NCBI RefSeq assembly: GCF_964204645.1 | Contig: NC_134026.1 | Span: 12,550,450-12,614,449, forward strand | DNA length: 64,000 nt | From: Tubulanus polymorphus | Lineage: Eukaryota; Nemertea; Palaeonemertea; Tubulaniformes; Tubulanidae | Direction: 5' to 3' | Part shown: piece by piece, positions 28,875-49,243 of the stretch | Position numbering within the stretch: position 1 is the first letter of the stretch | Layout of the letters: every line of letters starts with the position of its first letter | Notes under the pieces: model-generated | Databases searched by the model: none | Seen by the model: only the letters and a program-made list of their open reading frames with translations | Told to the model about the DNA's origin: nothing | Program-made: the position numbers and the translations under genes

Positions 28875-28890
28875 TTTTTTAATTATATAA

Positions 28891-30408
28891 ATGGGGTTTC
28901 CAAAAGCTTTCCAATATAATAAATCAATTAAATATAATATTCCTGCAATAGATTTTAATAAAAATGTTACATATAAAAATTTAGTTTTAAATTCATTAAC
29001 TAATTTAGAAATTTATGTAACTGAAACACAGTTTTTTATTTCTAAAATAGAAAATATATTTAATACATATGAAGTTACTTTTACTCGAGATGAATATCAT
29101 ATATATAAAGTAAAATCTAATATGAAATATTGGCAGAATCAATTAAATGTTGCTGTTTATTGTGCAACAACTGGTTGTGGTATAAGTTGGAATGATCATT
29201 TAAATAACTTAGATAAAAATTTGAATTATTTTTGTTTTAAAATTAATTCACACAATATTTAGATTTCACACATATTTTCAAATTAGAATAATATTAAATG
29301 AATTAGAATGTCCTTTACCCGGATCTAAATATTTTAAAGAATTGGATAATAATATTAATCTAAGTTTTATAAAATATGTAATGAATTTAATATAAATATT
29401 AATTCCGATTTTAGAGCGCATGGTAAATTGCAAGGTATTGGTAAAAAAAAAGATTAGAATATAATGATATTTATAAATTCAAACCTGTATTTGAAAGATC
29501 TGGGTATAATATAAATGATAGAGGCGCCAGACTTTTAGTAACAGAATTAAAATCTTTAGATGGTGAATATTATTATCATTTGAAATATGATTATTATATT
29601 GATATCACTTATAAAAATCAAAACAAAATATTAGCAGAATCAACTTTGAGTAATTTAGAACCATCTAGAATTAAAAGAATAAGTAATAATAGCAATGAAA
29701 TAGAAAATGTTACACAAGAAGAAAAAAATCAAAATTAAAGAGTATTTAAAGAAAGAATAAATGAATTAATTGAAACAATCAATAATAATTTAGAAACAGA
29801 AACAACTTCTGAACAGAATATAATTTCCAAAACTAGTAAACTTGAATCAAACGAAGTTCAAACTGAAAAACTTTTATCGAATGGATTACTTGATGCAACA
29901 GATCAAGAAATAGAAGCTTTAAGTATGTTTTCTGAAAAAAACAATTAGAGAAATAATAAGTATACGAAATGAAGCCAATAAAATTGCGCGCGAAAAAAAT
30001 ATGAGATATAATAAAATTAAACCTTTAGAAAATAAATTATTTGACACCAGAAAAGAATTAGAACAATTAAAATTAGATAGAGAATTTAACTATGTAACTA
30101 TGGTATTCACAACAATTGGTTTAGCTATATCAAATTCATTGAAATCTACACCAAATCCTAATAAACCGGATAAACCCCCAAATGATAATAATTCTATACA
30201 AGATAAAGTTAAGGATGGTTTAAAAACATTAGCAAAATATTTATGGGAACTATCTAAAAAATCTGCTGCAGCTTTACCCGGAGTTATTGCATCAATTGTT
30301 GGTTTTATATTGAAATCTGCTGGGAATATTCTTAACTTTGCTGCTGAACATATTATTTTATTTTTAATTACAGTTGTAAGTGCTATTATTTTTGGGTTAG
30401 TGATATGA
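28891..30408 (+). pseudogene. Large element structural/membrane protein (about 500 codons), broken
   Basis: Start ATG 28891 in TTAATTATATAAATG. The first part (to 29262) contains NVAVYCATTGCGISWNDHL. A neighbouring frame continues with a FHTYFQIRIILNELECPLPG-type segment (29265 on), then 29440-29740 and 29760-29950 as Asn/Glu/Ser-rich stretches, and finally 30001-30408 with a heptad-like helix (PLENKLFDTRKELEQLKLDR) and hydrophobic AAALPGVIASIVGFILKSAG segments. Frame breaks are at about 29262, 29390, 29450, 29738 and 29948. That this is one gene is inferred from continuous similarity to a long protein I recall from other animal elements. The role is unknown; surface or membrane-active capsid protein is possible. 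Confidence 0.45.
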
Positions 30409-30442
30409 TAAAAAATAGATAATTAATTTTTTTGTTAAATAA

Positions 30443-31678
30443 ATTAGTGGGAGTTATATAAATCCTTCTAAGAATCCTAGAATATCTAATGCTATTAAAG
30501 CAGAAAGATCTCATCATATAATTACGCATAATCCTTCTAATATTAATCCTGATGAAACTTTATATGTTAGAATCCCGAGATTAACACAAAATACTATTTA
30601 TGTTCCAAATAGTATTTATTTATCAGCTGATATAAATGTAACTGGTAATAATAATAATTATGTTGTTGATAAGGTTGGAAGATATTTGATTGAAAAATTA
30701 ACTATAAAGATTGGCCCAGAAACAGTTTTCTCATTAGATGATTATTATTTATTTACGCATTACAAAGATTTATGGTTAACGAAAGAAAATAGAAATAATA
30801 TGATATTTCAAGGCATCCAATCAGAAAACCAAAATAAATTAAGATCGGGAGCTAATGACGCAATAGTTACTCGTACTGCAGATAATTTGATCAAAAAGAT
30901 TTATGGAAGCAAACATAAAATTCCATTAGATTTTGAATTGATAAATAATAATGCACCTTTATATAAATACGCAATTCAAGAAGATTTTATATTCGAAATG
31001 ACATTTGCTCCTGTTAATGAAATTGTATTATCTAGCATTGTTAAAGATATGGGTTATAAATTATCGAATATATGTTTAGAATATGACACAGTAACTGATG
31101 AAAATATTTCAAGCATAATTCAAACTCAATACAATCAAGGATTTTCATTATTATATGATTATATTGATAAATGTAAAACTGTAACTATTAATGCAAGTGA
31201 TGAAATTATTAATGAGAATATCAACTTCCCAAGAAGATCTATTAAAGGTATATTAATATTTTTTACCATTGCAACATATTCTAATGGCGCAATACAGGTC
31301 GATAATTATTATAATCCTGAAATAACAAAAGTAGAAATAACTATCGAAGGAATAGCAAATAAAATATTTTGTCAAGGAATGAGAATGATAGATCAATGGC
31401 CAGAAATTAGAAAATATTTTATGAATGAAAAAGTAAAATCATCTGAAAATTGTAATATTAATCAAATTGATTATTATACCGGTAATAAATATGCATTGTG
31501 GTTAGATTTTAGAGCAACAGAGGGTAATTCATTAGATGGTTCTGGAAAAAAATTACAGAACACTAAAGATGGGATACAATTATTCATGACAAAGAATAAA
31601 GGAATCAAAAATTTTAAAATGCACATTTATATTATATCTGACGCGCAATTAAATATTGTAAATTCTTCAATTAAATAG
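30443..31678 (+). pseudogene. Probable major capsid protein, open frame but start codon lost (element C)
   Basis: An uninterrupted 411-codon frame, but the position of the start codon of copy A (415) is ATT here (30443-30445), so translation would need a later ATG such as 30686. The N-terminal half has IPRLTQNT and the KLTIKIGPETVFSL strand pairs. The C-terminal half has DYYTGNKYALWLDFR, then GSGKKLQNTKDG, and ends in a YIISDAQLNI strand. The length and strand-rich pattern suit a double-jelly-roll capsid subunit. The identity rests on recalled similarity and position between the large membrane gene and the zinc-finger gene. Confidence 0.65.
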
Positions 31679-31723
31679 TGTTATGTATTAGAATTTTAAT
31701 TTTAATTAAAAAATTTATAATAA

Positions 31724-32532
31724 ATGGATGCAGGTAAAGTATATAAACATATTCCATACATTGATAAACATGAAAATAATGATGGCTTATATTATGTAAT
31801 ACCTTGTAATATAGCTTTGATATTTGATCCTATTTTCAAAAATTATAAAACTAAACTAATAGAAATCGATAATAATTAAAGTGGAGTTGCTGATAATTTA
31901 AGTAATGAAATTGATAATAATGTTTTACCTTCTACATCAAATAATGTTTTATCTTCTACATCAAATACTTTTTTACCTTCTACGCCTAATAATGAAATAA
32001 TATTAAATATTAGTGAAAATAGAAATTATTGTGGTTACTGTAAAGGTGAATTTTCAAACAGTCCATCAAATTGGAATAATCATATGAATACAGCTAAACA
32101 TATTACTAATGTAATAGAGCCTGTTGGTATAAGAGATTTTATAGAACACCCATTTAGATATGTAACAAAGTTTGTTTCAAATAAAAAAGTAAATGGTAAA
32201 GATTTATATAAAGATTCATTAGGTGAATTTTTATCTAGGGAACCTGTTAATGATAAATTAGATTTATCTGCTGCTAAAAAAAATAATAGGATCAAACATT
32301 GTAAGTGAAATGTTGGGGTCAAACACTAAGAAAGATGACAATGAAAATATAGTTACAGGTAAATATATTGATTTAATGATGAAGGTATTAAGAAATCGAA
32401 AATAGAAGATATATTTACAAGTCGTGATAATGCTCAAGTTTTATCAAAAAACGATTTTAATTTGGCTATTGTGAAAATGAGTCGGTAGATATGTTGAATA
32501 AATTGTTAGGGTATGATGATGAAAGTGATTAA
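31724..32532 (+). pseudogene. Element C zinc-finger protein downstream of capsid gene
   Basis: ATG 31724 in TTATAATAAATG. The first 51 codons are open, then a TAA at 31876 and the frame resumes. A threefold Leu-(P/S)-S-T-(S/P)-N repeat lies at about 31927-31990. A C2H2 finger (YCGYCKGEF ... HMNTAKH) is at about 32028-32103, followed by a conserved-looking basic region to 32308. Weaker remnants (SKIEDIFTSRDNAQ-type) continue to 32532. Copy A has a different gene with one finger at this place. Function unknown; nucleic-acid binding likely. Confidence 0.5.
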
Positions 32533-32765
32533 GATAGTAATGATAATTATCTAACACGCACATAATATATTAGTTGAAAATTGTATAAAATAATAGTTAA
32601 TAAAACAAGAAAATTAACTTTAATAAATTATTTGACGCCTGCGAAAAAATGTAGAATTTCTGGTATAAGCTAATTATGAGATTATTAAGGGGAATTATGA
32701 GATTTGGCGATTGGGTAGATGATACAGTCTTCGACTAGTCTAATTTAAAAAAAAATTGTCAACTT

Positions 32766-33105
32766 GTGCCCACTTTTGCCTCTAAGCTGGTCTGCAACTT
32801 CATTGCCTCCATGGTTGAAGAAAGGGCTCTTCTGATGTCTGCTTCATCATGACTTTGAGCATATCGTGTAGCCAGCCAGCCCGGTCCTGGGGCCCGGTCT
32901 GGCTGTCACTTGATATCCTAGACTTGAGTCTGGGTTGAAGTAGACATTGTCATTTAAATAACTTATTCATGTTATTCTGTATGAATTACCCGTGTGTCTT
33001 GTATTTTCTTTTTTAAAAATTTGTAAATTTATTGATTTTTGGAATTTTATCCCGGAATTTCAATGTAATAAAGATCAGTATTAATGAGGATAAAGTATTG
33101 AATTG
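32766..33105. mobile_element. Short retroposon (SINE or LINE 3' end), 340 bp
   Basis: Flanked by a 12-bp duplication AATTGTCAACTT (32754-32765 and 33106-33117). The insert is GC-richer than the element, has a GC-rich inverted segment (CAGCCAG ... CTGGCTG) and ends in an AATAAAG-containing tail with ATTGAATTG repeats. No coding sequence. Family not recognised. Confidence 0.65.
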
Positions 33106-33117
33106 AATTGTCAACTT

Positions 33118-33757
33118 ATACACATGCCATCAGTGGACGCGGAGCCGTATATGACAGCTATGCTATTATAAATTGCTAATCTCATGAAACCTGCATACGT
33201 CTAATATCGAACATATTTTCTAAAACATTTGAATATTGAAATTATATGTTTACACGTTTTTATATAGACCGCTTGTAGCCGCCGATGAAATTCACGCCGG
33301 CCCAACTCAGATCGTAGAGTCACTAGTAGAAAGATCGCAGATCGTCACTATCGCAGATCGTCACTAGCATCCCCATGTCAGGGTCTGACTTTTATATCAG
33401 ACTTCCAAATCGTGTATACATCCGCCATTTAACCGAATAATCCGATTTACTTATCATTTCTATTTATCCCTGCCGCTCTTGATATAATCATACATCCTTT
33501 ACTATTACAATACGTCTTCTCATGATATTCAATGCGATATAACATTTCGACGTTCAAATAGAGGTCATTATATAATCCCAGGGAGCCATTCTACATCTTT
33601 ATCAATAATATTTTGCCAAATAGCTTGTATGTGTACACATAAACCTGTGACGTTTTGCACATCGATTTACGGTTGTCGTTTGTAAAATGACGCTGAATGG
33701 TTATCATTGTTTAGGTTTCATAATGGTAACGTTTTATAAGGCGTCAAAAAAGGGGTT
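33118..33757. other. Noncoding sequence in the convergent gap of element C
   Basis: About 640 bp without a gene. It is less AT-rich than the element and has no match in element A, where the two arms are closer. It contains a short repeated AGATCGTCACTA/AGATCGCAGATCGTCAC patch (33331-33366). Possibly inserted host-derived DNA. Confidence 0.4.
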
Positions 33758-33950
33758 TTAAGTTTTTATGTATCTAATACGTATCTAATACATATTTAAG
33801 TATTTATGTATCTAATATGTATTAATCTAAATAACCTTTATTAGTTAGTCAAACTTAGTTGAAAAATTAAAATAGATAATATTTATTTAAAAAAAGGGGT
33901 TTTAAGTATTAAGGTATCTAATACGTATCTAATACATTAATACTTAAAAT
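33758..33950. repeat. GTATCTAATAC palindromic repeats downstream of ATPase (element C)
   Basis: Two blocks of about 45 bp (33758-33800, 33896-33945), each GGGGTTTTAAGT... followed by TATCTAATACGTATCTAATAC. The intervening 90 bp include TAGTTGAAAAATTAAAATAG, also seen in element A (about 2612-2640). Conserved position beside the ATPase stop in both elements. Confidence 0.55.
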
Positions 33951-33953
33951 ACC

Positions 33954-34564
33954 TTATTTTATAAACTTATATTCATATGGAAATTGAAGCCTCAGAAGTA
34001 ATTTTGAACCTTTATTATTCTTTAATTTATTCATATATTCAACAAGTAATTCAGTAGGTATAATTTGATTTTCTTCCAATGATTGTTGCATAGATTTTCT
34101 ATCTTTGTTATAAAATGAAACTAGAAATCTTATATTCTCCCTAAAGTCTTTAACATTTGAATTATATTTTTGATTTAAAACCCATGTTGTTATCCCAAAA
34201 TGTCTCCCAGAGAAAGCTAGATAACATAACTCGCTTTCTCTCACTTTTTAATAATGTAAATTTGCAAAATCGTCTATAATGAATAATGTATTTGAACCTT
34301 TATAAATATCAATTGCTATTTTAATACAATTATCTAAATTTTCTTTTACTGTTTCAGGATCTAATATAATAAACTTTTTTATCTTAACTATATCTCCATT
34401 ATATGTTTTATTCATTTCATAAGTAGGACAGAATAATATTATATTATCAAAATGATTCTTATAAATAGTTCTAACAAATCTAATATGAAATGTGTTTTAC
34501 GACAGTTGGTTACCCCAGTAACTGACATATTATGCGGTTCAAATATAAATAAATCTTTATTCAT
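33954..34564 (-). pseudogene. Packaging ATPase, decayed (element C)
   Basis: The C-terminal piece 34244-33954 is open; a stop at about 34247 and a one-base loss near 34472 break the rest. The Walker A box here reads GVTNCRKT, so the Gly before the catalytic Lys is Arg. Walker B (LFIIDDFA) is present at about 34270. Compared with element A, this copy shows the same domain order and overlaps the integrase gene end, but it could not give an active enzyme. Confidence 0.8.
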
Positions 34565-35640
34565 TTATTCTTTTAATTTTACTGGATAAATCCATTCATT
34601 AAATTTATCATCATACCCTTTATATTTCACCAAAGAATACTTTTTTCCTTTAAGAGTTTTTGTTTTCAATACTTTTTCTATTTTGTATTCTATTTCATCT
34701 GGGTTCGGTACAAGTGATAATTCTTGTTCATAGAAATAACCTAATATTTCTTCATCTTTTAAATATTCTAATTTATAAACAAATGGTTTAGTTAATATTA
34801 TCTTTTTAATCTTGAATATTTCTTCTGTAAAATTAGGAGTATAACCTTTATAAAATGTTTTTCCATATTTAGCTATTCTAACGTGTTGTCCAATTTTAAA
34901 TTTAGGTTCTCCGAAATCATGTGTAACAAACGCACTATATAAATTATCCCAAACTATTTCTGAATTATCTTCTTTTCTAGCTTGTATAGGTTTCATATTT
35001 ATAGAACTATGTTTAGAATTATTATAACCTTTCACTAAATCATCTAACACATCGATATATTTATATGTTTCATTAGCAGTAAAATATTTCCACATTCTAG
35101 ATTTTAATGTTTTATTAAATCTTTCTATAATCGATGCTTTTTTATCTGAGTGTGTTGAAAAATAATCTACATCGTTATCAGATAATAGTTTTTTAAAATG
35201 TTTATTATAGAATTCTTTACCTTCATCGAATTGTATCTTATCTGGAATAGATCTTTTGATTTAAGAACATTTGTTACTTCTATACCAGTTTTATTTTTGA
35301 TTGGATTTTGACCATGCGTATCTACTGAATATATCTATAACATTTAATATCCAGAAATATCCTTTGTTGTGTTCTTCTAAGTTCTTCATATCAATTAAAT
35401 CTGCTTGCCATTGTTGAGCAATATATGAAACCATAACGTTTCTTGTTAAATAAGTTTATCCATTTTCTTGTGGATTTGATATGTTGGTTGATTTTGTAAC
35501 CATAATTTTAATTCACTATATTTTATATTTTCATAATCAGATTTAATTTTATCCCATAATTCTGAAACGCAAGAATATGATACTTCACTCTCTGGGTTAT
35601 AATATAAATCTCTTAAATATTGTTCTTTTTTCATCTTATT
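34565..35640 (-). pseudogene. Integrase with chromodomain, decayed (element C)
   Basis: Open pieces are 35634-35446 (N-terminal) and 35095-34565 (C-terminal with basic linker and chromodomain, ending before the Trp-Ile core is complete). The catalytic core lies between 35440 and 35100, with frame changes near 35453, 35310 and 35255 and a stop near 35096. The acidic residues of the core can still be made out in shifted frames. It is a clear homologue of 3346-4437. Confidence 0.85.
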
Positions 35641-36000
35641 TTAATCCATTAATAATAATTTAGATTTAGTTTCAATGATTTTATCATTTGATTTATTTTC
35701 TGGTATAATAGGTTTATCATCAGAATCATTATTGTTATTAAATTTTGATTCATATATTACACCGGAGAATATAATAATTGTGATTAACCCAATTGTAATA
35801 TATAAGTAATTATTTCTTCCACTATTAGAAGAATCAGATGGATTATCATTCGAATCAATATCAGATAATTTCTGTGATTCATTTATATCAGTTAATTTCT
35901 TTTTCTTAGCTTTTTTTAATTCTGCAGATCTTTTACCTAATTCCCTTGCCCATTTAATTTGTTTTTCAGATCTAGGCTTCTTCTTAATATCATCACTCAT
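35641..36000 (-). CDS. Element membrane protein with basic N-terminus (SEKQ-type), element C
   Basis: 119 codons, intact. It has the same plan as 4444-4842: a basic start (KKKPRSEKQIKWARELGKR), a Ser/Asn/Asp-rich linker, one hydrophobic segment at about 68-86 (LYITIGLITIIIFSGVIY), and a short polar tail ending KLLLMD as in the other copy. Shorter than copy A by 13 codons in the tail. Start TAAAATAAATG. Confidence 0.7.
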   Translation of the reverse strand: MSDDIKKKPRSEKQIKWARELGKRSAELKKAKKKKLTDINESQKLSDIDSNDNPSDSSNSGRNNYLYITIGLITIIIFSGVIYESKFNNNNDSDDKPIIPENKSNDKIIETKSKLLLMD

Positions 36001-36590
36001 TTATTTTAGTTAATTTTTGTTCTGATTCATTTTCTGTTTCACCGTGTGGGTGCCGTATGGCACCATCTGTTTCGTTCTTACCTGATTTATATTCTATAGG
36101 CTTCATATTCGAAATTGTTATGACACCAGTAGAAATTAATGTCATAACCGATCCTAATTGGAATGAAGCGTATCCAACCCATTTTTGTAATTCAGTCATA
36201 ACTAAGTAGTCATTTTTTAAATCACTATATAATTTATTTTCATCATCAATTGGTATAATCCGTTTACATAATTTTGAATAACATTTGACAATACCATCAC
36301 TTATATTTATTCTAGCTAATATTGACTCTTCATAAATCTTAAAATATTCCATTACTTTATCTGGTTTCATGGCATCTAGTTCTTTATAAGTTACAATTTT
36401 TCCCAAGAACTCTTTAGATTTCCCTCCGGCAATTAGTAATTCAAAATGGCGCTTACAATATAAGTAGTATTCATCATCAATATTGTTATCAACTTGAGCA
36501 CAATTAGTTACAACTGCATCATTATTGCCAGTAATGCCAAAATCCTCAATTGTCTTTTCAATATCAGCATTATTTTTACTCGATTTCTTT
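35993..36590 (-). pseudogene. Element membrane protein (MSKK-type), element C
   Basis: The open part is 36406-35993 (137 aa). The upstream frame to an apparent start near 36590 matches fragment D (47574 on) but is broken close to 36410. It includes the CKRHFELLIAGGK stretch, a Lys-Ile-Val-Thr-Tyr-Lys-Glu-Leu segment and one hydrophobic segment (LGSVMTLISTGVITI). Its 3' end overlaps the next gene's ATG by 8 nt. Function unknown. Confidence 0.6.
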
Positions 36591-36851
36591 GACAGTTATA
36601 TTAGAGAAAAAAGCGAGAAAAAAAATATTATAAGTATTATAAAATGATACTAATTACTCTTTAGGTTAATACTAAATTGACTAGGTTAGTTAATGTTAAA
36701 GAATTTTTATTCAAACCCATTCAAAATCTTTTTAATCTAGTGTTAACAAGAATTGCAAAAGAAAATATTAAAAATATAATAGAAATAATGGATAGTTGAA
36801 GTTATTGCTTTTTTATTACATTTTATTTGAGATATATTAATCTTTAACCAC

Positions 36852-37563
36852 TTATAAAGACTCAACGTATTGTTCATTATTTGGATCATTGTTCCATATT
36901 TCAATAAATTTCTTTGCTTTATCCAGTTGATCCAAATATAATTTCATATCAAGTTTGTTCCCTTTCCTAATATTTTCAACTTTTTCTAAAGGTCTTAAAT
37001 TCTGCCAGCTCCAGATTAATTTCTGATTGTGTTCATCATTCATGTTGAATTTAGATATTGGTAACACGTGATCAATATGAAAATAATCTCCATAATTATC
37101 TATATTCATTTTTTCATTGAACATATATATAATCCATGATTTGAGAAATTTATCTGTACAACCCAACAAATTAGATGGTGTAACTGAATGCTTTTCTTTA
37201 ATGAATAATTGTGATAATCTATTTCTCAAACATTGTTTCATTTTAAAATTAAGATCTGTTTTGTATCACTTCTCATATATTCTGTCATATAATCACGGTT
37301 ATCTTTTTTCCAATCTCTCATGTATTCTGGATTATTTGCTCGCCATTGTTTTTACAATTCTTTACATTTTTCTAGATTATTTATATAATATTGTTTACTA
37401 TTTTGATTATGGCAGCTTTTGCAGTTATGACGTAAACCATCATTGCCAATCTTACGTTTATAATAATCTGTAAATGGCTTACTTTTTTTACATTTACAAC
37501 ATAAATATTTATAACACCAGTGTTATTTGTAATATTAATAATTTGTGGCTGTTTACTTTCCAT
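36852..37563 (-). pseudogene. HNH endonuclease, element C copy
   Basis: The C-terminal part 37241-36852 is open and holds the HNH core (HIDHVLPISKF at about residue 54, NLRPLEKVENI, KGN). The N-terminal part starts at ATG 37563 (TATAAATG) but a frame shift near 37495 and others near 37350 and 37265 disrupt the zinc ribbon. Unlike in element A, about 1.1 kb of noncoding sequence separates this gene from the terminal repeat. Confidence 0.85.
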
Positions 37564-37722
37564 TTATAATATATGAATTTTTTTATTCTATTTGAAATCT
37601 ATTTGATAATTTCCGTCTGTTCATCTTCGACTAACGTCATCCTTTTTCATTCCTCGCTGCTTTTGATAAGTCATTTCGGTTCCTTGATATCTAAATCATA
37701 CCAGTTACAATATCCGTGTCGC

Positions 37723-37884
37723 ATACAGGCGCGCTTTTGCTTAATACGCATGCGCTAATCATAATTGTATATTTATTCTGTAAAATTGAAACAACCGAAC
37801 ATAGAACATTCAAACGCATGCGCATTAAGCAAAAGTGCGCATACAGGCGCGCTTTTGATCAATGCGCATGCGCTAATCATAATT
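37723..37884. repeat. Direct repeat with GCGCATGCGC core
   Basis: CATACAGGCGCGCTTTTG and the following 28 bases at 37723-37768 recur at 37839-37884; the space between holds an inverted copy of GCATGCGCATTAAGCAAAAG. GC-rich islands in AT-rich DNA. No gene is seen. Confidence 0.6.
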
Positions 37885-38049
37885 GAAACGACGAACATAG
37901 AATATACACCAAGCTGCGCCTACAGATTTACACAATACATATACAAGTATGTTCGGTCGTTTCATCCAATACATCATTTGATTTCTATTTATAAATTTTA
38001 TAATTACAAACATTTTTTTCAATTGCCGGTAAATATTTAACTACATCAA

Positions 38050-38241
38050 CAAATGTTAAACTTAATCATTGGAATTTTTGGAGTAGTCTAAATGTTTTTG
38101 AAATTCTTATATAGTTTCTTCGTCGATCTTTTGTGTTTCTTGTGCTTCTACGCCAATTTCTATTGGTTCGATATCCATTGCTGTCTACTCCTCAGAAAGA
38201 GTATCTTGAGTTTCTCTATCGCTTCTTGATGCGCGTGACAT
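38050..38241 (-). pseudogene. Small acidic ORF remnant between HNH and terminus
   Basis: ATG 38241 follows TTAATAAAATG. It reads a short Ser/Arg/Glu-rich peptide (MSRASRSDRETQDTLSEE), a stop, then in frame a Glu/Ile-rich stretch (MDIEPIEIGVEAQETQK). It may be a broken small gene of the element. Weak case: no homologue in the other copies. Confidence 0.25.
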
Positions 38242-38619
38242 TTTATTAATCTAAAAGATATTAGTGGTAACTCTAATTATCTAAAAGATATACTAAATAC
38301 ACTTAAATATATTTAAAGGTTTCATATTTAGTAGCCCCCCCCTTTCCCTACTTCATAATAACTACAAAAACAGTAATTACATTTAGAACTGTAAACCTTA
38401 ACTCCGAATGGTGTTTCGATAGATAAATCCTAAGCGTTCTGTGTATGCCGTCTGTTCAGTAAGAGAGCGGCGATCCAGTATGTGTAGTACATACTTGCGC
38501 AACAGTAAATATCAGAGGTATGATTCATTATGTCGCAATACATACTCAACAGGCGCCGTGTATCACTATGGCAACTATAGCAACAGGTGTTGTAAAAAAT
38601 CAAGAGTCATGTATTAAAG

Positions 38620-38914
38620 TATATTGATTTTACATGTTGGACAGTAGTACTTCTTATTTGCTTCCATTAAATCAAATTTAAATCAAATTATCAAATTTTT
38701 TATTAAAATTGATTTTAGAAGTTATTCAATTATATGTTATTCATATATATGAATATTTTAAGAGTAATAGGGATAATAGGAGTTCAGGTTAAAGGTTGAA
38801 GGGGCGAGTGAGTAAAAAATGAAAAATAAATTCGAGCGTGCGAGAATTTATTTTTTATTTTTTATGAGCTCGACCTTTCGACCTTTGGCTTGAACCCCTA
38901 TTATCCCTATTACT
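38620..38914. repeat. Right terminal inverted repeat of element C with complete 152-bp palindrome
   Basis: 38763-38914 opens with AGTAATAGGGATAATAGG and closes with its complement. Between them AGGTTGAAGGGGCGAG... and ...CTCGACCTTTCGACCTTT partly pair, with an inner stem AAATAAATTC/GAATTTATTT around GAGCGTGCGA. Inside it (38620-38762) lie TTCATATATATGAATATT and the first 47 codon bases of the zinc-finger gene on the minus strand. Host-like DNA starts at 38915. Confidence 0.85.
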
Positions 38915-39701
38915 TGCATTGACAGATTCGAACCTAATATGCAACCACTGCGTAAACGTCAAATATGATTCAGCTTTGAAACCGAACATACGCGGACGTA
39001 CAATCAACAAATATGAATTTATTTGACCAGGCATTTATTTTGGCATTCAAACATCATGATACTGTTTTATCACCATGCTTAAAAATGGATCTGTCCTATC
39101 AAGAACTCATCTTAAGCACCTGCTGAGTCGATAGATTGAGTGAATTTACAGATAAGAACGTATTATGATTTAGAATAGATCTAAGAAGTTAATGTTTTCA
39201 TTGAAATATTTGAATAAATACATTGTAGTGTAGATTTTATCAATAAATTATGATTATTTTTGGTCTGGGTTTCCGGCTGATGTTGATTTTGGCTTTTATG
39301 GATTACAAATTCTATAGTGAAAAACAATTGATACCTGCAACATGTGTCTAAATCAAACCTATTCCACTAGTTGCGTGTGTTTCCTAATAAACGGGAGAGT
39401 CACTCTTGATCTGAGTTATTAGAAACATAATGTTAATTTAGTTATAGAAATTCATTGCCTTTTTGAAAATTCTGTAATAATATTTGTTCTGTCCTAATTT
39501 TTATTACTGTATGAACCAATGATGTGCTTTGTAAATATGATGTAATAAAATAAATTTGAATTTGAATTAAATTTGAACATGAGAATCAAGCATAACTTGT
39601 GTTTTTTCAACTTGTCTTTTGTTAACAGTTCCAGAGTTTCAATTACAATCAAATACAAATTGGCTAAAAAGTACATAGGAATAAATGAAATGAACCGTTA
39701 G

Positions 39702-40980
39702 TTACTAGTGATCCACAGCTAGATTTTCGTAGTATTTGAAAATGTTTCGTAGTATTTAGAAATGTTCTTAATGTTGTTTCCGTATGTGTGGGGGTTACGT
39801 TAAAGCCGTCAGACAAGAACGTACTAGTAGTAAGAATTACGAAAGTTCTTGTTTGATGCTTTCATCTACCAACGCAAACCATAAATCAGTCTATAAACAA
39901 CAATTCTTTCTCGGTTCTTCTGCTGTGAGATCTGGCAAACATTCAGAAAATCTTTATATAAAACTTTTAAATAGTTGGAACCATATTTGGTTGGGTCGGA
40001 ACAATGGAGTGTATTTATAATGAAGCTCGTGAAGGGATCACGCTGATACTTGATGATATTCCCGGCTACTTTCCGTAAAAGGAAAAACCGGAAGTTTAGG
40101 AAGATGTGGTTGTTTTGTTTATCCTGTATTAAAATAGAATTAGTTAAATTGTAGATAAAATAATTAGTATAAGTATTTCAAATAATTTAAGAATTGATAA
40201 TCAATCACAATGTATTCCGAATCGTAGTTAATTATAATAATTAAAAAAGAAACAATGAATTTGTACCGTAATTAGAAAAGAAAACAAAGTTTTGAAAAGA
40301 TATTTAATTTGAGTAATCTAGATGTTGTTTAAGAACAAATTGTGAATAATCGCTAATGTTTTAGAAAAATTAATTTGTGTTAAATGTTAAAACTAGCTGT
40401 CTGTAGTTTCTGTTGTCTGTATGCGCTCGTTGGTAATTCACAGACAATAGCTGCTCTCTCAACAACGACTAGCAAGGAGTGAGTAAATCACAACGCGTCA
40501 TGACAGGAGGGTTGGAAGAAAAAGTTTATATCAGCAAATCAGTTTCTAAAAATACCTTTAGATCAGCAAATCAGTAGGGCTAAATTTTCCGTAACTAAAA
40601 ACGGTCATGACAGTTGGGTAGCTGCTCCTTGCCAAAAAGCGGAAGACCCTGCGTGGGAGAATCGGAATTCTGAGAATGCCGGTTCTTTCTACAAAAGGGG
40701 GCCGCTATCGAGAGAGAGGAGAGAATCTGTACCTTAGTAAGACGAGTGTCGACAGCAGGACAGGAGAAGCTTCGGAACGATAGGGATTCATATACAATAG
40801 GGATTAGGAAAATCATTCACAGGTTCAAGGTAAATAAAATATATTATCTTCAATATTATCATCCGGTATTTCAATTTATTCATTCGGATTTGTGCACGGA
40901 CACGTTCTCTCGCCAGGGCCTTACTCAAGTATTTTATAGATAACGATTTAAGAGAGGATTGTGACCGGTGTATCACTAGT
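39702..40980. mobile_element. Possible DNA transposon insertion in unit X
   Basis: The inverted copy of unit X (near 54880-54920) lacks this 1.27-kb stretch. It is flanked by ACTAGTG on both sides (39702-39708, 40974-40980), a possible 7-8 bp target duplication as in hAT-like elements. Terminal inverted repeats are not convincing and no transposase is present. Contents are otherwise noncoding. Confidence 0.35.
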
Positions 40981-41973
40981 GTTATGTCGATCGTGTTGAA
41001 TCACTTTGCTTGATTTGAAGGAATCACATCTTCTATGGTGCAACATCGGTCGCAGAGAGATATCTTGGTGTTGACTCACCTTGACCATCTAACTTCATGC
41101 GTTTGACATTGGAATCAGCATCATACCATTTTGAACTGCATAATATTCATACAACATGAAAACCTACAGTACATCTATACAGTAATCAAACTTTCACCGA
41201 TGTTGGATATTTGAATGAACGTTAGGCTTATTTCAGTATTCTGAAGCAGGAAATAATAAGCCCAATCAATAGGCCCTATTCCCATTGGAACAATTGTATA
41301 ATGCGTACAGCTGTACCGTACACTTATCAGTCAAGAATGGAGAAATCGGTATACCAAACCTACGAACAGCAAAATGTACAGGCCTACAATGATTTCTGGT
41401 ATACAAGCCGTGACCACATGAACGTTTTGGATCTAGGTTTGACTATTAATATCAGCAGGTCAGAGAAGGCCTGGCCAAATTTAATCACATGACTCAAATC
41501 AATAAGCCTTTCTGCGTGTGAATACTTCACTGTATTGTTTTAAAAATAGGCCTATCGAGGGAATTAGTACATAGACTAAATTAGACTTTAAGCTAGTCCT
41601 GACCAAATCCTATCCATGTTATAATGGCACCAGTTATAGTAACATCACTGTAGGGCGACGAGAGGGAAAAAGTTGTGTTTGTGGTACATAGGCATGGTAG
41701 GCTTGTACTAACTTAATACTTAAAACGCTGTTGTTAGCTGTACGTGACTGTACGGTGATTTCTACTGGTTAGCCGTATGTGAGTACGTTGACGCTCAGAC
41801 ATGCAATATTGGGATTCGAAACCAAACGAAAAAAAATAATCCAGTAGTAGTCCAGTGATTTACCCACTGTGACACAGAACGTAACTACAGGGTGGATGAA
41901 ATTTGATTTACAAATAGCCTAGCCTCACTAACCCAAATTCCATTCTTTCACGCATCCGCGTTTGCAGATTATA

Positions 41974-42400
41974 GGAACTCACGTACGGCATTTTTAGGGA
42001 ACTCGCGTACGGTTAACCTGTGGATATCATCGTACAGTCACGTACGGGTAACAACTTCGTATTTAAAATGGTATTGGCTACTAGGAACTCACGTACGGCG
42101 TTAGTAGGGAACTCACGTACGGTTAACCTGTGGAGATCACCGTTCAGTCACGTACGGGTAACAACTTCGTGATTAAAATGGTATTGGCTACTAGGAACTC
42201 ACGTACGGCGTTAGTAGGGAACTCACGTACGGTTAACCTGTGGAGATCACGTACAGTCACGTACGGGTAACAACTTCGTACTTCAAATGGTATTGGCTAC
42301 CAGGAACCCACGTACGGCGTTAATAGGGAACTCACGTACGGTTAACCTGTGGAGATCACCGTACAGTCACGTACGGGTAACAACTACGTACTTAAAAATA
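41974..42400. repeat. 109-111 bp minisatellite with CACGTACGG units
   Basis: Nearly four copies; unit starts are at 41974, 42083, 42194 and 42303 (GGAACTCACGTACGGCG). Each unit holds four ACGTAC-containing sites, two of them GGAACTCACGTACGG. About two inverted units lie at 53690-53885. Confidence 0.85.
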
Positions 42401-42785
42401 CTTTCTAACATTAAAACGATATTTATTAATATATAAAATTCCCCTCCCCGATAAGTTTTCACCCAAATTGTTAAGTAGTAGGTAAAAAATCCTCCAGAAA
42501 ACTTATTGAATTTTTGATTGAGCGTAGACCTAGTTTATTACTAGATATGGGTAAACGATTCAAAGTGAAACTGATCAAGTAGTTAGTTAGAGATATAATG
42601 TAGTTATGAAATCTATTGAATAAAAAACTACATTTTTCATGATACAATACAAGAAATAATGGGTATACTAGTAATATCAGAGTTTATATGTTTTTATATG
42701 TAAACTGAAGCTGTGATCACTGAACCGAAATTAAACTGAACTGAATTTAATTTACATGTAAGTCATAGTTAAATGGTTAAACCAC

Positions 42786-43028
42786 ATGGGACATATACTC
42801 GCGAATCATTATGAACTCATACATTGTTGTGGGCTTTTCTACCCTCTCGTAAAACATGGTGGCGTATACGGTAAAAATCCCCAAATATTCAAAGAAGGTA
42901 AAAATTTCCACTTGGTGATTTTCAAGAACATTTCAAAGCACGATGTTTCTCCAATTTTATTCATTTGCGATGAGACCGAAATATGTTTGAACTGCACAAT
43001 GAAATCTTTGGTTGGGATAAATTGTTAA
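42786..43028 (+). CDS. Unrecognised 80-codon ORF next to element D
   Basis: An open frame with several His, Cys and Phe (HILANHYELIHCCGLFY ... CDETEICLNCTM). Its inverted copy at 63452-63694 differs by a single residue, which follows simply from the duplication. No domain is recognised and no splice signal checked. Coding status uncertain. Confidence 0.25.
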   Translation: MGHILANHYELIHCCGLFYPLVKHGGVYGKNPQIFKEGKNFHLVIFKNISKHDVSPILFICDETEICLNCTMKSLVGINC

Positions 43029-43154
43029 ATAAACGACTTGAATAAAATAAATTATTGGAATTAACAATAATAAGGAAAGGCAGGAATAAATACTAATATA
43101 ACGTTACTTACTGTGCCAATCGTATGTTGACTGACAAAGTATACTATGGTTCAG

Positions 43155-43249
43155 TTCATACCAAAGGTCAAAGGGTCGAAAAATAAATATATCAAATTTA
43201 TTTTTCGACCCTTCAACCTTTGAGCTGAACCCCTATTATCCCTATTACT
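43155..43249. repeat. Palindromic terminus of element D
   Basis: TTCATACCAAAGGTCAAAGGGTCGAAAAATAAAT pairs with ATTTATTTTTCGACCCTTCAACCTTTGAGCTGAA, ending in CTATTATCCCTATTACT at 43249. The outermost AGTAATAGGG arm is missing. Inner sequence CTTAAAATATTCATATATATG follows, as in element C. Confidence 0.8.
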
Positions 43250-43319
43250 CTTAAAATATTCATATATATGAATATGAATAACTTCAAAAATCAATTTAAA
43301 TAAAGAATTTGATATTAAA

Positions 43320-43442
43320 ATGGAACCAAATAAGGAGTACTACTGTCCAACATGTAAAATCAATATAGATAAATCTCAAAAAGCAAGGCATAATATAACT
43401 AGAACACATTTAGAGAAAGGGAAACATCTTAATCAATTTTAA
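43320..43442 (+). CDS. Single zinc-finger peptide in the element terminus
   Basis: 40 codons with a complete stop. CPTC and two His (ARHNITRTH) form a C2H2 finger like the start of the polymerase gene at 20040. In this fragment it ends after the finger (EKGKHLNQF). Because the terminal repeats of element C include the beginning of this frame, the piece occurs at both element ends. Inverted copy at 63038-63160. Confidence 0.55.
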   Translation: MEPNKEYYCPTCKINIDKSQKARHNITRTHLEKGKHLNQF

Positions 43443-43460
43443 TAAAAATATGGATTATAA

Positions 43461-44129
43461 ATGGTGGAACAATCACAAACTATCAATATTCCCCATAAGA
43501 AATGTTCAAAATGTGAATTAGATAAATCATTATCAGAATATTATAATAAAAAAACTCAGAAAGATGGTAAGCAAAGTTATTGTAAAACTTGAAGTAAACT
43601 AAGTGACAAACAAAATTATAGAAATAATACTGAAACACGCAAAGATAAGATTAAGCAATATCAAGCAAATAATAGAGAATATTATAAAGAACTCAATGAA
43701 AATTATCAAAAAGAAAGGCGCCGAACAGATTTTAATTTTAAAATGAAACAATGTTTAAGATCTAAAATATCAAAATTATTCAGTAAAGCTAAACATCCAG
43801 TTACACTATCAAATTTGTTGGGTTGTACAGATGAATTCTTAAAATCATGGATTATATATCAGTTTGACGATAAAATGAATGAAAAAAACTATGGTGAATA
43901 CTTTCACATTGATCACGTGTTACCAATATCGAAATTTGATATGAATGATGAATACAATCAAAAGCTAATCTGGAATTGGAAAAACCTGAGACCTCTTGAA
44001 AAGAAGGAAAATATAAGGAAAGGAAATGAACTAGATTTTCAGTTGTATTTAGACCAGTTGGTTAGAGCAAAGACATTTGTTGAATTATGGAACTCAACAC
44101 ATAATGAAAAATACGTTGAATCTTTATAA
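43461..44129 (+). pseudogene. HNH endonuclease 1, fragment D
   Basis: ATG 43461 in GGATTATAAATG. The zinc ribbon (KCSKCELDKS ... YCKT) is followed by an in-frame TGA at 43591-43593, where the inverted copy at 62351-63019 has Cys. Beyond it the frame is open through the HNH core (HIDHVLPISKF, NLRPLEKKENI, KGN) to 44129. About 222 codons in the undamaged partner. It lies directly inside the element terminus after the zinc-finger peptide. Confidence 0.85.
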
Positions 44130-44139
44130 ACGCCCGATG

Positions 44140-44227
44140 ATACTCAGCCTGTATAACTGGTACTTAAAGTTCAAAAGAGAAGAGTCAAAAGAAAATGAGA
44201 TTATTAAAAGAATTCTAAAATGTTAAT
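44140..44227 (+). pseudogene. Remnant of the DNA polymerase B C-terminus
   Basis: Reads (Y)NWYLKFKREESKENEIIKRIL, clearly like the end of the polymerase at 26130-26205 (LRFKREETKENEIMKRIL). It sits between two HNH genes, with no other polymerase sequence nearby. The inverted copy is at about 62262-62345. Confidence 0.7.
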
Positions 44228-44254
44228 CAATTTTAATAAAAATATATATCATAA

Positions 44255-44958
44255 ATGGAAAGTACACAAACTATCAATATAAACAATAATACTGGGGTTA
44301 TAAATATTCACCATAAGATATGTTATAAGTGTAAAATAAATAAATCATCAGCAGAATATTACAAAGATAAATATTCTAAAGGTGGTATACGAAATATTTG
44401 TAAAACTTGTCGTAAACTATATAATAAACAATATCAAGTGAATAATTCAGAAAAATGTAATGAAAAAATAGACGTTGGTGAGCTAATAATCCTGAATATT
44501 TTTATGAACATCAAAATAATTACCAAAATGAAAGTTATAAAACAGATTTTAATTTTAAATTGAAACAATGTTTGAGAATTAGATTATCACATTTATTCAG
44601 TAAAGATAAACACTCAGTTACACTATCTTATTTGCTAGATTGTTCAGATAAATTTCTAAAATCATGGATTATATTTCAGTTTGATGATAAAATGAATATA
44701 AATAATAATGTTGAATATTTCCACATTGATCATGTGTTACCAATATCTAAATTTGACATGAATGATGATTATAATCAGAAATTAATATGGAATTGGAAGA
44801 ATCTAAGACCATTTGAAAAGAAGGAAAATATTAGGAAAGGAAATAAACTTGATATGAAATTATATTTGGAGCATTTAGATAAAGCAAGGAAATTTATTGA
44901 ATTATGGAATAGTGATCCAAATAATGAACAATACGTTGAGTCTTTGATAAGTGGTTAA
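44255..44958 (+). pseudogene. HNH endonuclease 2, fragment D
   Basis: The zinc-ribbon part 44255-44563 starts in ATCATAAATG and has KICYKCKINKS ... CKTCRKLYNKQY. A frame shift near 44490 leads to the open HNH part 44560-44958 (HIDHVLPISKF, NLRPFEKKENI, KGNKLD). Same fold as the other copies, about 60-70% alike by eye. It is followed by the conserved noncoding block at 44991. Confidence 0.85.
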
Positions 44959-45180
44959 AGAATAGTTTACAGGAATTTAATATAGAGGATCCGAAATGGC
45001 TTATCTGGACGGTTATAGTTACCGCTCGTTTAGATTGACAAAAGTAGAAAGGTATTAAATAGAATTTAAATGATATATATTAAAAAAAACAATAACTTCA
45101 ACTATATAGTGAATTCTATTATATTTTTATTCAAAATCTATTATTTCTTTTCAAAAAGGGAATACTTTATATTTTAAATC
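44653..45180. repeat. 520-bp direct repeat flanking a MULE insertion (left copy)
   Basis: The same sequence recurs at 46931-47455 with few changes, covering the 3' half of the HNH gene and the noncoding block downstream. The MULE block lies between. The left copy ends in TTTATATTTTAAATCA and then foreign sequence starts. This is far longer than a MULE target duplication, so a larger duplication is involved. Confidence 0.75.
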
Positions 45181-45230
45181 ATTGTTTCAGTAAATTGCAA
45201 AATATTATGAGTTAATGTTAAATTCACCCA

Positions 45231-46028
45231 TCATCCTAAAAATCGCATATTTTCTCCGATACCACGCAACAATTCCCCAAGATTTTTCACCCTATTATTA
45301 TAGTCCACGCATAGATTTCGCAATCGAATTTGTAATTGTACATATTTTTGGAAAACACGCTTAGTTGGATTATTTCCAAGATTGTTCTGTGCAGTCATCA
45401 TCTCTACAGATGCATTGTCCTGCTGGAATCCTTTAATGGTGCGCCAGATAGAAGGATGATGATGTCCTATAATGTTGTAGAACTTGTTATTCCACGACTC
45501 ACAAATATTATTAGTTCTAGCATCGTTAGTTAATGTTGCTTCGCGGACGTTCCAAATTGATGGTTCGTACATTGGCGGTACTTTTCGGAGTCTGACTATC
45601 CCGTTCGGGGAGCTAACTGGTCGCCAAGATCCATTTACGTAAGTTGAATTAAAATAGTCCAGAAGTTCAATTACCTCATCAGGGACGTTTTCGAGGAGAT
45701 ACGCCAATCCAGCAGGTACATCATCTACTGGCAAAAATGCTAAGCCATCAAGCATCCCCACAAATAATTGAAATTCGGCATTTTCTCGATAGTGTTGAGA
45801 TAAACCAAGTGATTGTATTTTGCGCCATGTCGATTGCGTAAGATGAAAGAAACATCCTTTTACATTCACACGGTTATTAAAAGCAACGTTAATGGCTTGC
45901 TGTACTGCTCCCTCGTAGTCCAGCATGATGGTTTCTGGTTCTAGATATAGATTTCGCTCCTGGCAATCATTCATTAGAATACGTAGCATATCTTCATAGG
46001 TCCCCTGATCTTTCTTCATTAGTAACAA
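45231..46028 (-). pseudogene. MULE transposase, catalytic region
   Basis: 265 codons. It has the second-acid region (LDYEGAVQQAI), the CxxH-type core GCFFHLTQSTWRKIQ, and a later Glu-containing NNICESWNNKF, as expected for the MULE DDE transposase. The C-terminal part is helical and basic. The upstream (46028-46418) coding sequence carrying the first catalytic Asp is full of stops, so the gene is inactive. Confidence 0.8.
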
Positions 46029-46417
46029 TAAGCAACAGATATTGATGTACCACCAAATTGAATTCGAATTACATAAATTTGCTCGAAAAGTGAAGGGGCC
46101 ATACTAAAATTGCCATCTATAAACATGACTTGGATGAAGCTAGTTTTCGAAGTCCATCATCGCTAGAAAATATAATTCTTCTTCCTTGCTCTTCATTATC
46201 ATGAAGGAGAAATCTGTCGGCAGCTTCTTCTCCAGATGTCGCAGCCCATTTTCCGTCTATTCTCAATTCTCGTAGTAAATCTGGCTCTTTAGGATAATTC
46301 TTTCTACGTTCACGGCGGATACTTTTCTTACAGGCTTCTTCATTTGCAAGACGGGCTTTTACATTGACATCGGTTATCTTTTTATAAGACTTCAGTGAAA
46401 ATCTGTACTGGTTTATT

Positions 46418-46681
46418 TCAACTTTCTTCAGCCAATCTCTTCATTTCATTTCTAGATTTAGAAATATCTACAGTTGTCTGGTCTGCAATGTGATTATGCT
46501 CTCCAGTTTCTCTTGTGGATTCTTCAACAACGTCAGTAATAACACATCCCTTGCATTTCGTAGTTCTGCTTCTTATACAATTCCATCGAATCTGTCTTGC
46601 TGTAGAATATTGTTTCAAGTACATGTAACCATTTAAACACAACTTCAAACCACCTCTAGACGTTTTGATAAATTCAGCCAT
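46418..46681 (-). pseudogene. FLYWCH zinc finger of the MULE
   Basis: 87 codons. GYMYLKQ, then WNCIRSRTTKCKGCVI, then HNH (GEHNHIAD) fit the FLYWCH finger (Trp-x-Cys ... Cys ... His-x-His). In animal MULEs this DNA-binding finger precedes the transposase domain, as here. The link to the downstream part is broken by stops. Confidence 0.8.
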
Positions 46682-46931
46682 AGCAATATTATCTTCTCTG
46701 TATCTGATTGTGATATGCCCTAATCTCTGAATTTCTGCCTGTTATATAGTTTTTGGTTGATTGTTGATAAGAGTTCAGTGTAATTAGAACGCAGCTGATA
46801 TATAATCACAATTAGACATTAATTAATGATAAGAGTTCATAACAAATTAGTTTCAATTAGTTAAAACAGGTGTTAAGTTTTCAATCTTTTAAGTGAACAC
46901 ATTCCAGTATTTATAGTCACAGTAAATGTAT

Positions 46932-47240
46932 TAATTTCTAAAATCATGGATTATATTTCAGTTTGATGGTGAAATGAATATAAATAATAATGGTGAATAT
47001 TTCCACATTGATCATGTGTTACCAATATCTAAATTTGACATGAATGATGATTATAATCAGAAATTAATATGGAATTGGAAGAATCTAAGACCATTTGAAA
47101 AGAAGGAAAATATTAGGAAAGGAAATAAACTTGATATGAAATTATATTTTGAGCAATTAGATAAAGCAAGGAAATTTATTGAATCATGGAATAGTGATCC
47201 AAATAATGAACAATACGTTGAGTCTTTGATAAGTGGTTAA
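46932..47240 (+). pseudogene. HNH endonuclease, C-terminal fragment (right copy of the direct repeat)
   Basis: Begins inside the gene at the same codon as the left repeat copy (SWIIFQFD) and continues open to 47240 with HIDHVLPISKF and NLRPFEKKENI. A few residues differ from 44560-44958 (for example FEQ for LEH). It lacks the N-terminal zinc ribbon and half of the linker. Confidence 0.8.
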
Positions 47241-47573
47241 AGAATAGTTTACAGGAATATAATATCGAGGGTCCGAAATGACTTATCTGGACGGTTATAG
47301 TTACCGCTCATTCAAAAGTAGAAAGGTATTAAATACAATTTAAATGATATATATTAAAAAAACAATTACTTCAACTATATAGTGAATTCTATTATATTTT
47401 CATTCAAAATCTATTATTTCTTTTCAAAAAGGGAATACTTTATATTTTGATAAGATTTGAATAGAAATTCTTTAACTTTAACTAACCTAGTCAATTTAGT
47501 ATTAACCTAAAGAGTAACTAGTATCATTTGAAGGATAAGTATAATATATTTTTCGCTTTTTTCACTAATATAA

Positions 47574-48165: not shown

Positions 48166-48462
48166 ATGATATTAAGAAGAAGCCTAGATCTGAAAAACAA
48201 ATTAAATGGGCAAGGGAATTAGGTAAAAGATCTTCAAAGAGCTAAGAAAAAGAAATAAGTGATAGAAATGAACCACAGAAATTATCTGATATTAATTCGA
48301 ATGATAATTTATCTGATTCTTCTAATACTGGAAGAAATAATTACTTATATATTACAATTGCAGTAATTAATCGCAGTAATTGTATTCTCTGGTGTTATAT
48401 ATAAATATAAATCTAAATCGATAGTAGTGATGATTATAAACCTATTATACCAGAAAATAAAA
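48159..48462 (+). pseudogene. Element membrane protein (SEKQ-type), fragment D, broken
   Basis: ATG 48159 in TAAAATAAATG. The basic start (KKKPRSEKQIKWARELGKR) is intact; a deletion near 48238 and stops near 48395-48420 disrupt the rest. It ends near KPIIPENK, where the sequence switches abruptly to leftward integrase sequence. Confidence 0.65.
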
Positions 48463-49240: not shown

Positions 49241-49243
49241 TCT

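Follow-up and report, generated by a model that had tools for sequence, protein, structure and literature searches.

Palindromic termini with coordinately changing arms in a Polinton-like element family of Tubulanus polymorphus

Polintons, or Mavericks (adintoviruses), carry genes for PolB and an rve integrase, capsid-like and ATPase-like frames, terminal inverted repeats, a 6-bp target site duplication (TSD) and AGT...ACT ends. For vertebrate Mavericks, 6-bp TSDs, repeats of 46-1,447 bp and the end motifs (AG)3 or (AGT)2 are given in the available part of a published account (PMC8097293). In this study, the ends of Polinton-like elements were analyzed in a 64,000-nucleotide stretch of the T. 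polymorphus genome (hereafter, the window; G000:C2:12550450-12614449 of a 268-Mb, 77-contig assembly; GC content, 31.6%), which holds parts of three such elements, E1, E2 (19846-38914) and E3 (43155-58952). These elements share the PolB and integrase genes, the terminal inverted repeats, the 6-bp TSD and the AGT...ACT ends, and have candidate capsid-like and ATPase-like frames; their end motif and TSD fit the Maverick ends in the same part of that account (PMC8097293). Unlike in the Polinton descriptions examined, each terminal repeat starts with a long palindrome, the arms of which co-evolve. No description of palindromic Polinton ends was found in searches of open-licence papers on Polintons, Mavericks and adintoviruses or in the available parts of PMC6431247, PMC4061559, PMC8363768, PMC12747079, PMC12220804, PMC8097293 and PMC7805220; the words palindrome and hairpin are absent from the main texts of PMC8097293 and PMC12220804, and the hairpin in the available part of PMC6431247 concerns Helitrons.

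Hairpin ends and protein-primed replication by PolB are often treated as alternatives. Parvovirus and poxvirus telomeres share terminal palindromes with the elements described here, and some of these hairpin telomeres contain asymmetric mismatches; the parvovirus system uses a rolling-circle nuclease, whereas the present elements carry PolB, and the telomere cycles of both virus groups invert the palindrome, whereas no inversion was found here. In the fold-back transposons FB and Galileo, the two element ends pair with each other, whereas each end here is its own palindrome, in an element with PolB and an rve integrase. What is shared with fold-back transposons is the long inverted repeats at the ends (available part of PMC3573991). 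The nearest functional parallel is the telomere of Streptomyces linear replicons (Tpg/Tap), a terminal-protein system with terminal palindromes. This system has, to our knowledge, no integrase, and its telomeres differ further in being bacterial, replicated from an internal origin and equipped with several short hairpins; the likeness is one of logic. In Streptomyces, the outermost palindrome is complementary to part of an inner one, and the intervening hairpins bind Tap (available part of PMC4513846). Bidnaviruses share a protein-primed PolB that is thought to be derived from Polintons (PMC4061559), but panhandles, not hairpins, are described at their termini (PMC4061559, PMC4938981), and for one bidnavirus the absence of palindromic ends has been taken to fit protein priming (PMC4938981), in each case in the available part of the source. 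An element with both hairpin ends and a protein-primed PolB would bear on Polinton replication and the evolution of end recognition, and on the exchange of parts between parvovirus-like and Polinton-like systems. The co-evolving, hairpin-capable ends described below suggest a terminus type that is unexpected for elements thought to be protein-primed.

In the original prediction, made from the window alone, palindromes bounded by an 18-mer and its complement had been seen at six element ends. The window was searched for this 18-mer on both strands with up to three mismatches, and it or its complement was found only at those six ends. Both arms are present at the E1 right terminus (7467-7794, minus strand; complete 328-nt palindrome; TSD GGTGTA/GGTGTA), at the E2 right terminus on the side of a putative HNH nuclease gene (38763-38914, minus strand; complete 152-nt palindrome), to which the original finding was assigned, and at the E3 right terminus (58803-58952, minus strand; complete 150-nt palindrome; PolB side by gene order), where the inner arm has three mismatches to the 18-mer. 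The outermost part of the outer arm is missing, as had been noted, from the other three: the E2 left, PolB-side terminus (19846-19968, plus strand; approximately 44 nt of the outer arm absent; a TSD-like AGCATT with five of six bases lies 4 nt outside), the E3 left, HNH-side terminus (43155-43249, plus strand; approximately 20 nt absent; no TSD recognised) and 63231-63325 (minus strand). A palindrome copy is indeed present at this last position; it is not an independent element end, but a copy of the E3 left terminus within an inverted duplication (42480-44694 / 61786-64000; 2,215 nt with 11 differences) that includes the E3 left end and its flanking DNA. This duplication reaches the window edge, and represents a recent rearrangement or an assembly effect. 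The left partner of the E1 palindrome lies outside the window (332 nt, G000:C2:12540760-12541091). Inside the palindromes, an inner terminal repeat follows at the E1 right end (7384-7466, minus strand; CTTAAAA junction), where it resembles the terminal repeat of a short derivative, L133, described below, and, by repeat comparison within the window, at the E2 left end (19969-20136, plus strand), the E3 left end (43250-43417, plus strand) and the E3 right end (58644-58802, minus strand). The terminal 18-mer (7467-7484 and the other termini) contains TAGGGATAATAGG, which we take to resemble the start of the I-SceI homing site in 12 of 13 bases, probably by chance.

The collection of 18-mer copies from the whole host genome, which had been proposed as a check, yielded 1,042 copies (525 + 517; at most one mismatch), and the 27-nt inner junction was found in 965 copies (482 + 483; at most three mismatches); backward-read control patterns of both gave 0 copies genome-wide. 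In one genome, 965 inner junctions constitute a natural data set for template copying and selection on a DNA hairpin. Element ends were sampled from listings of approximately 100 places, and the fetched ends came mostly from contigs C1-C4. The first ten complete elements were chosen because both palindromes were present, whereas proximity of inner junctions was the sole criterion for the next 19 pairs, 11 of which are complete and 8 of which are incomplete at one end. Altogether, 36 candidate element pairs were examined. Both palindromes are complete in 22 of them, and one of the two is incomplete in 11; the other 3 could not be scored (L048/L049, owing to mispairing, and L055/L056 with its likely duplicate L057/L058, each missing one inner junction). 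A 6-bp TSD directly abuts the palindromes in 22/22 complete elements (21 exact, one with 5/6 bases), and in all 22 the palindromes at the two ends belong to one class and mirror each other. The palindromes of these elements are 182-404 nt long, and their lengths at the two ends are equal or near (404/404, 318/320, 268/268 and 342/342; largest difference, 182/188). The elements end in AGT...ACT, with the terminal sequence AGTAATAGGG. The palindrome is the outermost sequence of the element, with the TSD abutting it. An assembly artefact was considered and rejected, as palindromes of one class are present at numerous loci, where the target duplications differ.

The palindromes could also have been an independent fold-back miniature inverted-repeat transposable element (MITE) inserted at element ends, in which case they might occur away from the element genes. 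Palindromes with inverted ends are MITE-like in form, and 7 of 20 further places with a single arm lack a clear inner repeat (L105, L108, L112, L116, L117, L118 and L120), at which stray palindrome copies are possible; the remainder of the 20 consist of 10 complete palindromes with few mismatches and 3 places that adjoin the inner repeat, with no outer arm recognised. In contrast, every one of the 29 exact arm-arm pairs in the 100 listed places adjoins the inner terminal repeat, which makes an independent MITE unlikely, and the TSD lies outside the palindrome and is common to both element ends in 22/22 elements. We therefore regard this explanation as scarcely credible. Two of the single-arm places, L116 and L117 (C2:18215654 and 18219787), are single outer arms 4.1 kb apart with a common TSD, ATCGAC, as judged by eye, and are possibly one element with altered ends.

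The relationship between the arms was analyzed by aligning 53 termini, 51 of them distinct, from the 180-196-nt class, which comprises 53 of 87 palindromes. One end per complete element was used for the co-change, haplotype and position counts, with the suspected segmental duplicates L058 and L154 left out, and both ends of elements for the arm-resemblance, marker-block and apex-motif counts; the rows of L048 (doubtful outer arm with three mismatches) and of a wrong-strand reading of L085 were dropped. In the alignment, 97.8% of cells pair, and 12 of 80 base pairs are changed on both sides. Both-sided change occupies 61 cells, against 14.5 after shuffling (61 was reached in 0/500 shuffles) and 1-6 when slid, and one-sided change occupies only 6 cells. 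As a second approach, 40 regions were selected by inner-arm variants alone and fetched, and 37 of them had an outer arm. A matching change in the outer arm accompanied 25/27 inner variants at position 11 and 11/11 at position 16. These counts bear out the proposal that the arms are conserved in pairing and undergo compensatory changes. At positions 19-20, the two arms read CT/CT in 56 and GG/GG in 15 of 74 palindromes, and 3 are discordant. The deeper arm sequence is unrelated between classes yet self-complementary: an arm is closer to its own partner than to the same arm of another class in 38/45 class pairs at positions 57-90, in 112/171 at positions 41-56 and in only 95/190 at positions 19-40, where the classes are too alike, class pairs sharing members and hence not being independent in any of these counts. 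Changes on both sides leave the arms complementary even as their sequence is replaced.

Pairing was further tabulated by position in 84 of the 87 palindromes, those of 100 nt or less being left out. The outermost 24 bp are paired in 97.6% of cells (1,967/2,016), with perfect stems in 56/84 palindromes, in four haplotypes, and positions 29-34 are paired in 96.4%. The outermost 24 nt rank with the best-conserved segments of each arm, in part owing to the way in which the arms were located, and this would agree with a duplication of the integrase site, that is, with two facing copies of a terminal site for the integrase or terminal protein, further pairing of the arms being incidental. This explanation is improbable: positions 11, 16, 19 and 20 of this site are variable, usually in both arms together, and pairing runs on for 50-120 bp with sequences unrelated between classes.

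For the structure of the palindromes, 19 representatives were folded as DNA, each against 60 dinucleotide shuffles, and z-scores of -9.3 to -30 were obtained, in line with the prediction that the termini may fold as hairpins. As judged by eye, longer classes resemble shorter ones with an extra hairpin placed in the loop; the 268-nt class corresponds to a 152-type loop within a 189-like stem, and the 404-nt class to the 318-332 class plus one hairpin. Loops and lengths had been said to differ between copies. This holds for the lengths (66-410 nt across all palindromes collected) but only in part for the loops, where an asymmetric apex motif near TCGCRCRCTC (one mismatch allowed) is present in 51/74 palindromes, namely in 51/57 of four classes (110-194 and 268 nt) and in 0/17 of the remaining classes. 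The palindrome class is independent of gene divergence: in a comparison of one element of the 320-nt class with six of the 185-189-nt class, PolB pieces are 94.6-97.4% identical, whereas the palindromes are 51-53% identical. A further palindrome class of 194 nt, with GAGAAATTTT arms and a GG-type base, was observed in L106 and L107.

Certain mismatches persist within the stems. At position 35, the C of the outer arm stands opposite a base that is not its complement (C against T as written) in 78/84 palindromes, and within each of the six size classes this mismatch is more frequent than any other state. Mismatches at positions 28 (62/84) and 42 (64/84), seven bases on either side of position 35, are common in the 150-269-nt classes; in some other size classes, these positions are paired. 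In the commonest classes, the mismatches at 28, 35 and 42 are exactly seven bases apart, beside a repeated GGTCGA in the outer arm. We infer that selection acts on asymmetry in addition to pairing, because pure homogenisation would be expected to erase the position-35 mismatch; the alternative is inheritance of position 35 from a common ancestor.

Conversion between arms was scored with two marker blocks, S (GAGCTC) and G (GAGTGAG), with one mismatch allowed in each, written as (outer, inner). Among 74 palindromes, S,G was found in 44, S,S in 14, G,G in 4 and G,S in 0, with 12 other or unscorable. The presence of S,S and G,G beside S,G, with no G,S, indicates conversion in both directions without inversion. 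Between the two ends of an element, mismatches occupy 64 of 5,330 columns in the palindromes (plus 28 gap columns) and 56 of 2,523 in the inner repeat (plus 234); a stronger homogenisation of palindromes than of the inner repeat was considered and dropped, 10 elements speaking for it and 9 against.

Of 708 pairs of palindromes of similar length, 707 are oriented alike, and the remaining pair, made up of two short palindromes, is a near tie; the apex motif is reversed in 0/74 palindromes, and flip/flop orientations of the terminal palindrome were seen in 0/22 elements. With the commonest arm type, 181 matches (95 + 86) were obtained for the inner arm in forward arrangement, and 0 for a true reversed arrangement; other arm types were checked for reversal in fetched ends only. 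Six apparent reversed matches were accounted for: five are outer arms beside chance flanks, with inner arms 145 bp away in the forward list, and the sixth, L167, is a palindrome shortened to 86 nt, the inner base of which is normal. The original prediction had likened the ends to parvovirus or poxvirus telomeres. Rolling-hairpin or concatemer replication of that kind, with terminal resolution by the HNH nuclease, would suit the terminal palindromes, the nuclease gene near one terminus in some elements and the copying between arms. Its cycles invert the palindrome, and the absence of inversion (mirror symmetry in 22/22 elements, no G,S among 74, apex reversed in 0/74, 0 true reversed against 181 forward) disfavours them; the likeness was not supported as regards the mode of replication, which we consider very unlikely to be of this type.

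The palindromic termini themselves are confirmed: the feature is real and terminal, was not seen inverted, and has arms that change in coordination. As a tentative best reading, we favour hairpin termini of a presumably protein-primed Polinton, kept by arm-to-arm copying together with selection. In a linear extrachromosomal form, displaced single strands would fold their ends into hairpins, by which the outermost 24 nt would become double-stranded in cis with the inner arm, and a folded end would present a terminal origin and an integrase end on every strand, with no need for it to pair with the opposite end. Inverted-repeat (protein-primed) replication would keep the two ends alike, diverged or eroded arms would be repaired by copying of the other arm through fold-back or template-switch synthesis, and selection would preserve pairing together with the position-35 mismatch and the loop, all of them as features for recognition. 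In the weakest step, branched ends may be trimmed or resolved by the putative HNH nuclease, the gene for which lies near one terminus. The palindromes may in this way have consequences for protein priming or integrase recognition, as the original prediction had surmised. That eukaryotic mobile DNA has here a further solution to end replication, in which a protein-primed integrase element has self-folding termini, re-duplexes 24 bp in cis, copies its arms, retains a persisting mismatch and an asymmetric loop in fixed orientation and is served by HNH, is doubtful as a whole.

A serious rival, which is quite conceivable, is mutational homogenisation only: the palindrome would have been acquired once, at the terminus, quasi-palindrome template switching in the course of DNA replication would keep the arms matched, and the hairpin would be functionless. 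It agrees with the double changes, which include transversions and have few one-sided intermediates, with block conversions of several bases in both directions, and with the unlike outer-arm blocks at the two ends of two elements; template switching is said to create and maintain stems (available part of PMC8794818). It is at odds with the position-35 mismatch, which persists in all six size classes between well-paired stretches, and with the completeness of both palindromes in 22/36 pairs, given that loss of outer arms is frequent (one incomplete end in 8/19 junction-selected pairs). Template switching is also tied to spacer inversion (available part of PMC8604942), which was not seen here.

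Several observations weigh against hairpin termini maintained by copying and selection. The extrachromosomal form, the single strand, the hairpin and the terminal protein are all postulated, and template switching could maintain complementary arms without function. In the alignment, 31 of 53 rows came from a list selected for inner-arm variants, and the pairs at positions 11 and 16 supply 26 of the 61 both-sided cells; copies share ancestry, so that cells are not equivalent to events, and shuffling leaves this kinship in place. A measure of further pair types was less clear (18 against 15.0 shuffled; reached by 18/500 shuffles). Uncompensated mismatches occur at position 11 in 4/37 regions, in 28/84 stems of the first 24 bp and at both ends of L097/L098, and the high pairing of positions 1-18 is partly built in, the arms having been located via similarity to the 18-mer. 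Some classes lack the mismatches at 28 and 42: both positions are mostly paired in the 100-129 class, and 42 is mostly paired in the 350+ class and paired in 4/7 of the 318-345 class. The two palindromes of an element do not clearly resemble each other more than its two inner repeats do, the inner mismatch rate being higher in 10 elements and lower in 9. Finally, the outer-arm block differs between the two ends in L067/L068 and L083/L084; some conversions therefore took place at one end only, perhaps in the chromosome.

Incomplete ends were inspected individually. In L095, the palindrome starts at approximately position 31, immediately next to an exact TSD; in L089, AGTAATAG comes after an exact TSD and precedes a deletion that extends to approximately position 45; and in L056, the outer 37 nt and the TSD are kept and the remainder of the palindrome is gone. 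From these structures, shortened ends may be integrated, or shortened soon after. Exact TSDs were found at 3 of the 11 incomplete ends (L081, L089 and L095; unrelated DNA intervenes in L081), and matches of five of six bases only at five more. Of the incomplete ends in these 11 pairs, L060 shows divergence and not truncation, and the loss in L080 is confined to the outermost part. The derivative L133 (L133:126-2564) is 2.44 kb long, with inverted arms of approximately 740 nt, complete 342-nt palindromes and the TSD TCAAAC. Most genes are absent from it and are therefore not needed in cis. Its centre is a tandem repeat, each arm contains a 51-nt stretch that matches the right end of E3 (PolB side by gene order), and the symmetry of the derivative points to a fold-back rearrangement.

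Putative HNH nuclease genes were located inside the right terminus of E1 (Zn-ribbon/HNH; 6708-7205, minus strand), as a fragment approximately 1.5 kb inside the right terminus of E2 (36855-37265, minus strand), 344 bp inside the left terminus of E3 (43593-44126, plus strand; PHROG 1035 'endonuclease VII', 7.8e-6) with a second copy at 44482-44955, and in the inverted duplication (62354-63019, minus strand; PHROG 1035, 2.4e-13), where HIVH replaces the HIDH of the other copies. In the genome search, 150 of 1,147 candidates were scored and listed, and among these listed matches 11/36 element pairs contain one, as judged by eye; it lies 344-1,120 bp inside the terminus in seven pairs (E1, E3 and five more) and approximately 4.9-9 kb inside in four, two of which are mutual duplicates. 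In E2 and at C4:19628372, where PolB was also seen, HNH is at the end opposite PolB. PHROG 1035 'endonuclease VII' matches 19/20 aligned members, no HNH member was matched by Pfam at 0.01, and a structure model (mean predicted local distance difference test score, 86) gave weak matches to HNH domains. Phage endonuclease VII cleaves branched DNA, an activity that would suit a hairpin end. The HNH motif is used by homing endonucleases as well (available part of PMC6083498).

The assignment to Polintons/Mavericks rests on the protein-primed-type PolB gene, the retroviral-type integrase, the 6-bp TSD and the terminal inverted repeats with AG...CT ends. By sequence, the palindrome-bearing elements presumably form a multicopy Polinton family in which PolB is protein-primed. 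The integrase gene of E1 (3349-4443, minus strand) matched rve above the cut-off (9.9e-9), and a chromodomain match in its frame (8.2e-5) was under its bit cut-off; integrase fragments are present in E2 (34568-35260, minus strand) and E3 (48670-49026, minus strand). The 5' part of the E2 PolB gene extends over two frames (20452-21875, plus strand; DNA_pol_B_2 5.7e-7 at 21096-21875, above the cut-off), with other mobile DNA downstream, and a later part (25316-26209, plus strand) has a DTDS motif by eye and no Pfam match. Genome-wide, 147 PolB copies were scored among 1,649 candidates. Major-capsid-protein-like frames were found in E1 (415-1254, plus strand; Capsid_N 0.0065, below the Pfam cut-off) and in E2 (30443-31675, plus strand; 789 homologues at E<=0.001, without a Pfam match itself), and Capsid_N was matched in 6/22 homologues of the capsid-like frame. 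No solved structure was matched by sequence with the capsid profile, and a divergent capsid query retrieved only look-alikes of one family in the host genome (98 scored of 1,709 candidates, 40-43% identical). A packaging-ATPase-like piece of E1 (2741-3103, minus strand) matched Pox_A32 just under the Pfam cut-off (1e-4) and a PHROG terminase (2.6e-6). In a viral contig collection, no relative was found with the integrase and two major-capsid-protein profiles, and the exact 18-mer gave 0 matches; it matched 16 stretches in prokaryote genomes, and the E3 left terminus had no match in plasmids. Termini were compared within the host-genome family.

As judged by eye, E1, E2 and E3 all look broken, with early-ending frames or nested mobile DNA. 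Inside E2 PolB, inverted repeats of 995 nt that scored as 100% complementary in the repeat comparison (22538-25412) encode proteins with a GIY-YIG-like motif, by eye, which we take to be Penelope-like. A CGTACG-rich 110-bp tandem repeat is located outside E3 (41972-42397) and, inverted, inside it (53661-53882), and sits in a longer series of inverted pairs (approximately 39505-42400 / 53661-55083). Frames of a non-long-terminal-repeat retrotransposon, the best named relatives of which include molluscs, are nested in E3 (49997-53053), and a MULE-type transposase is present at 45234-46103.
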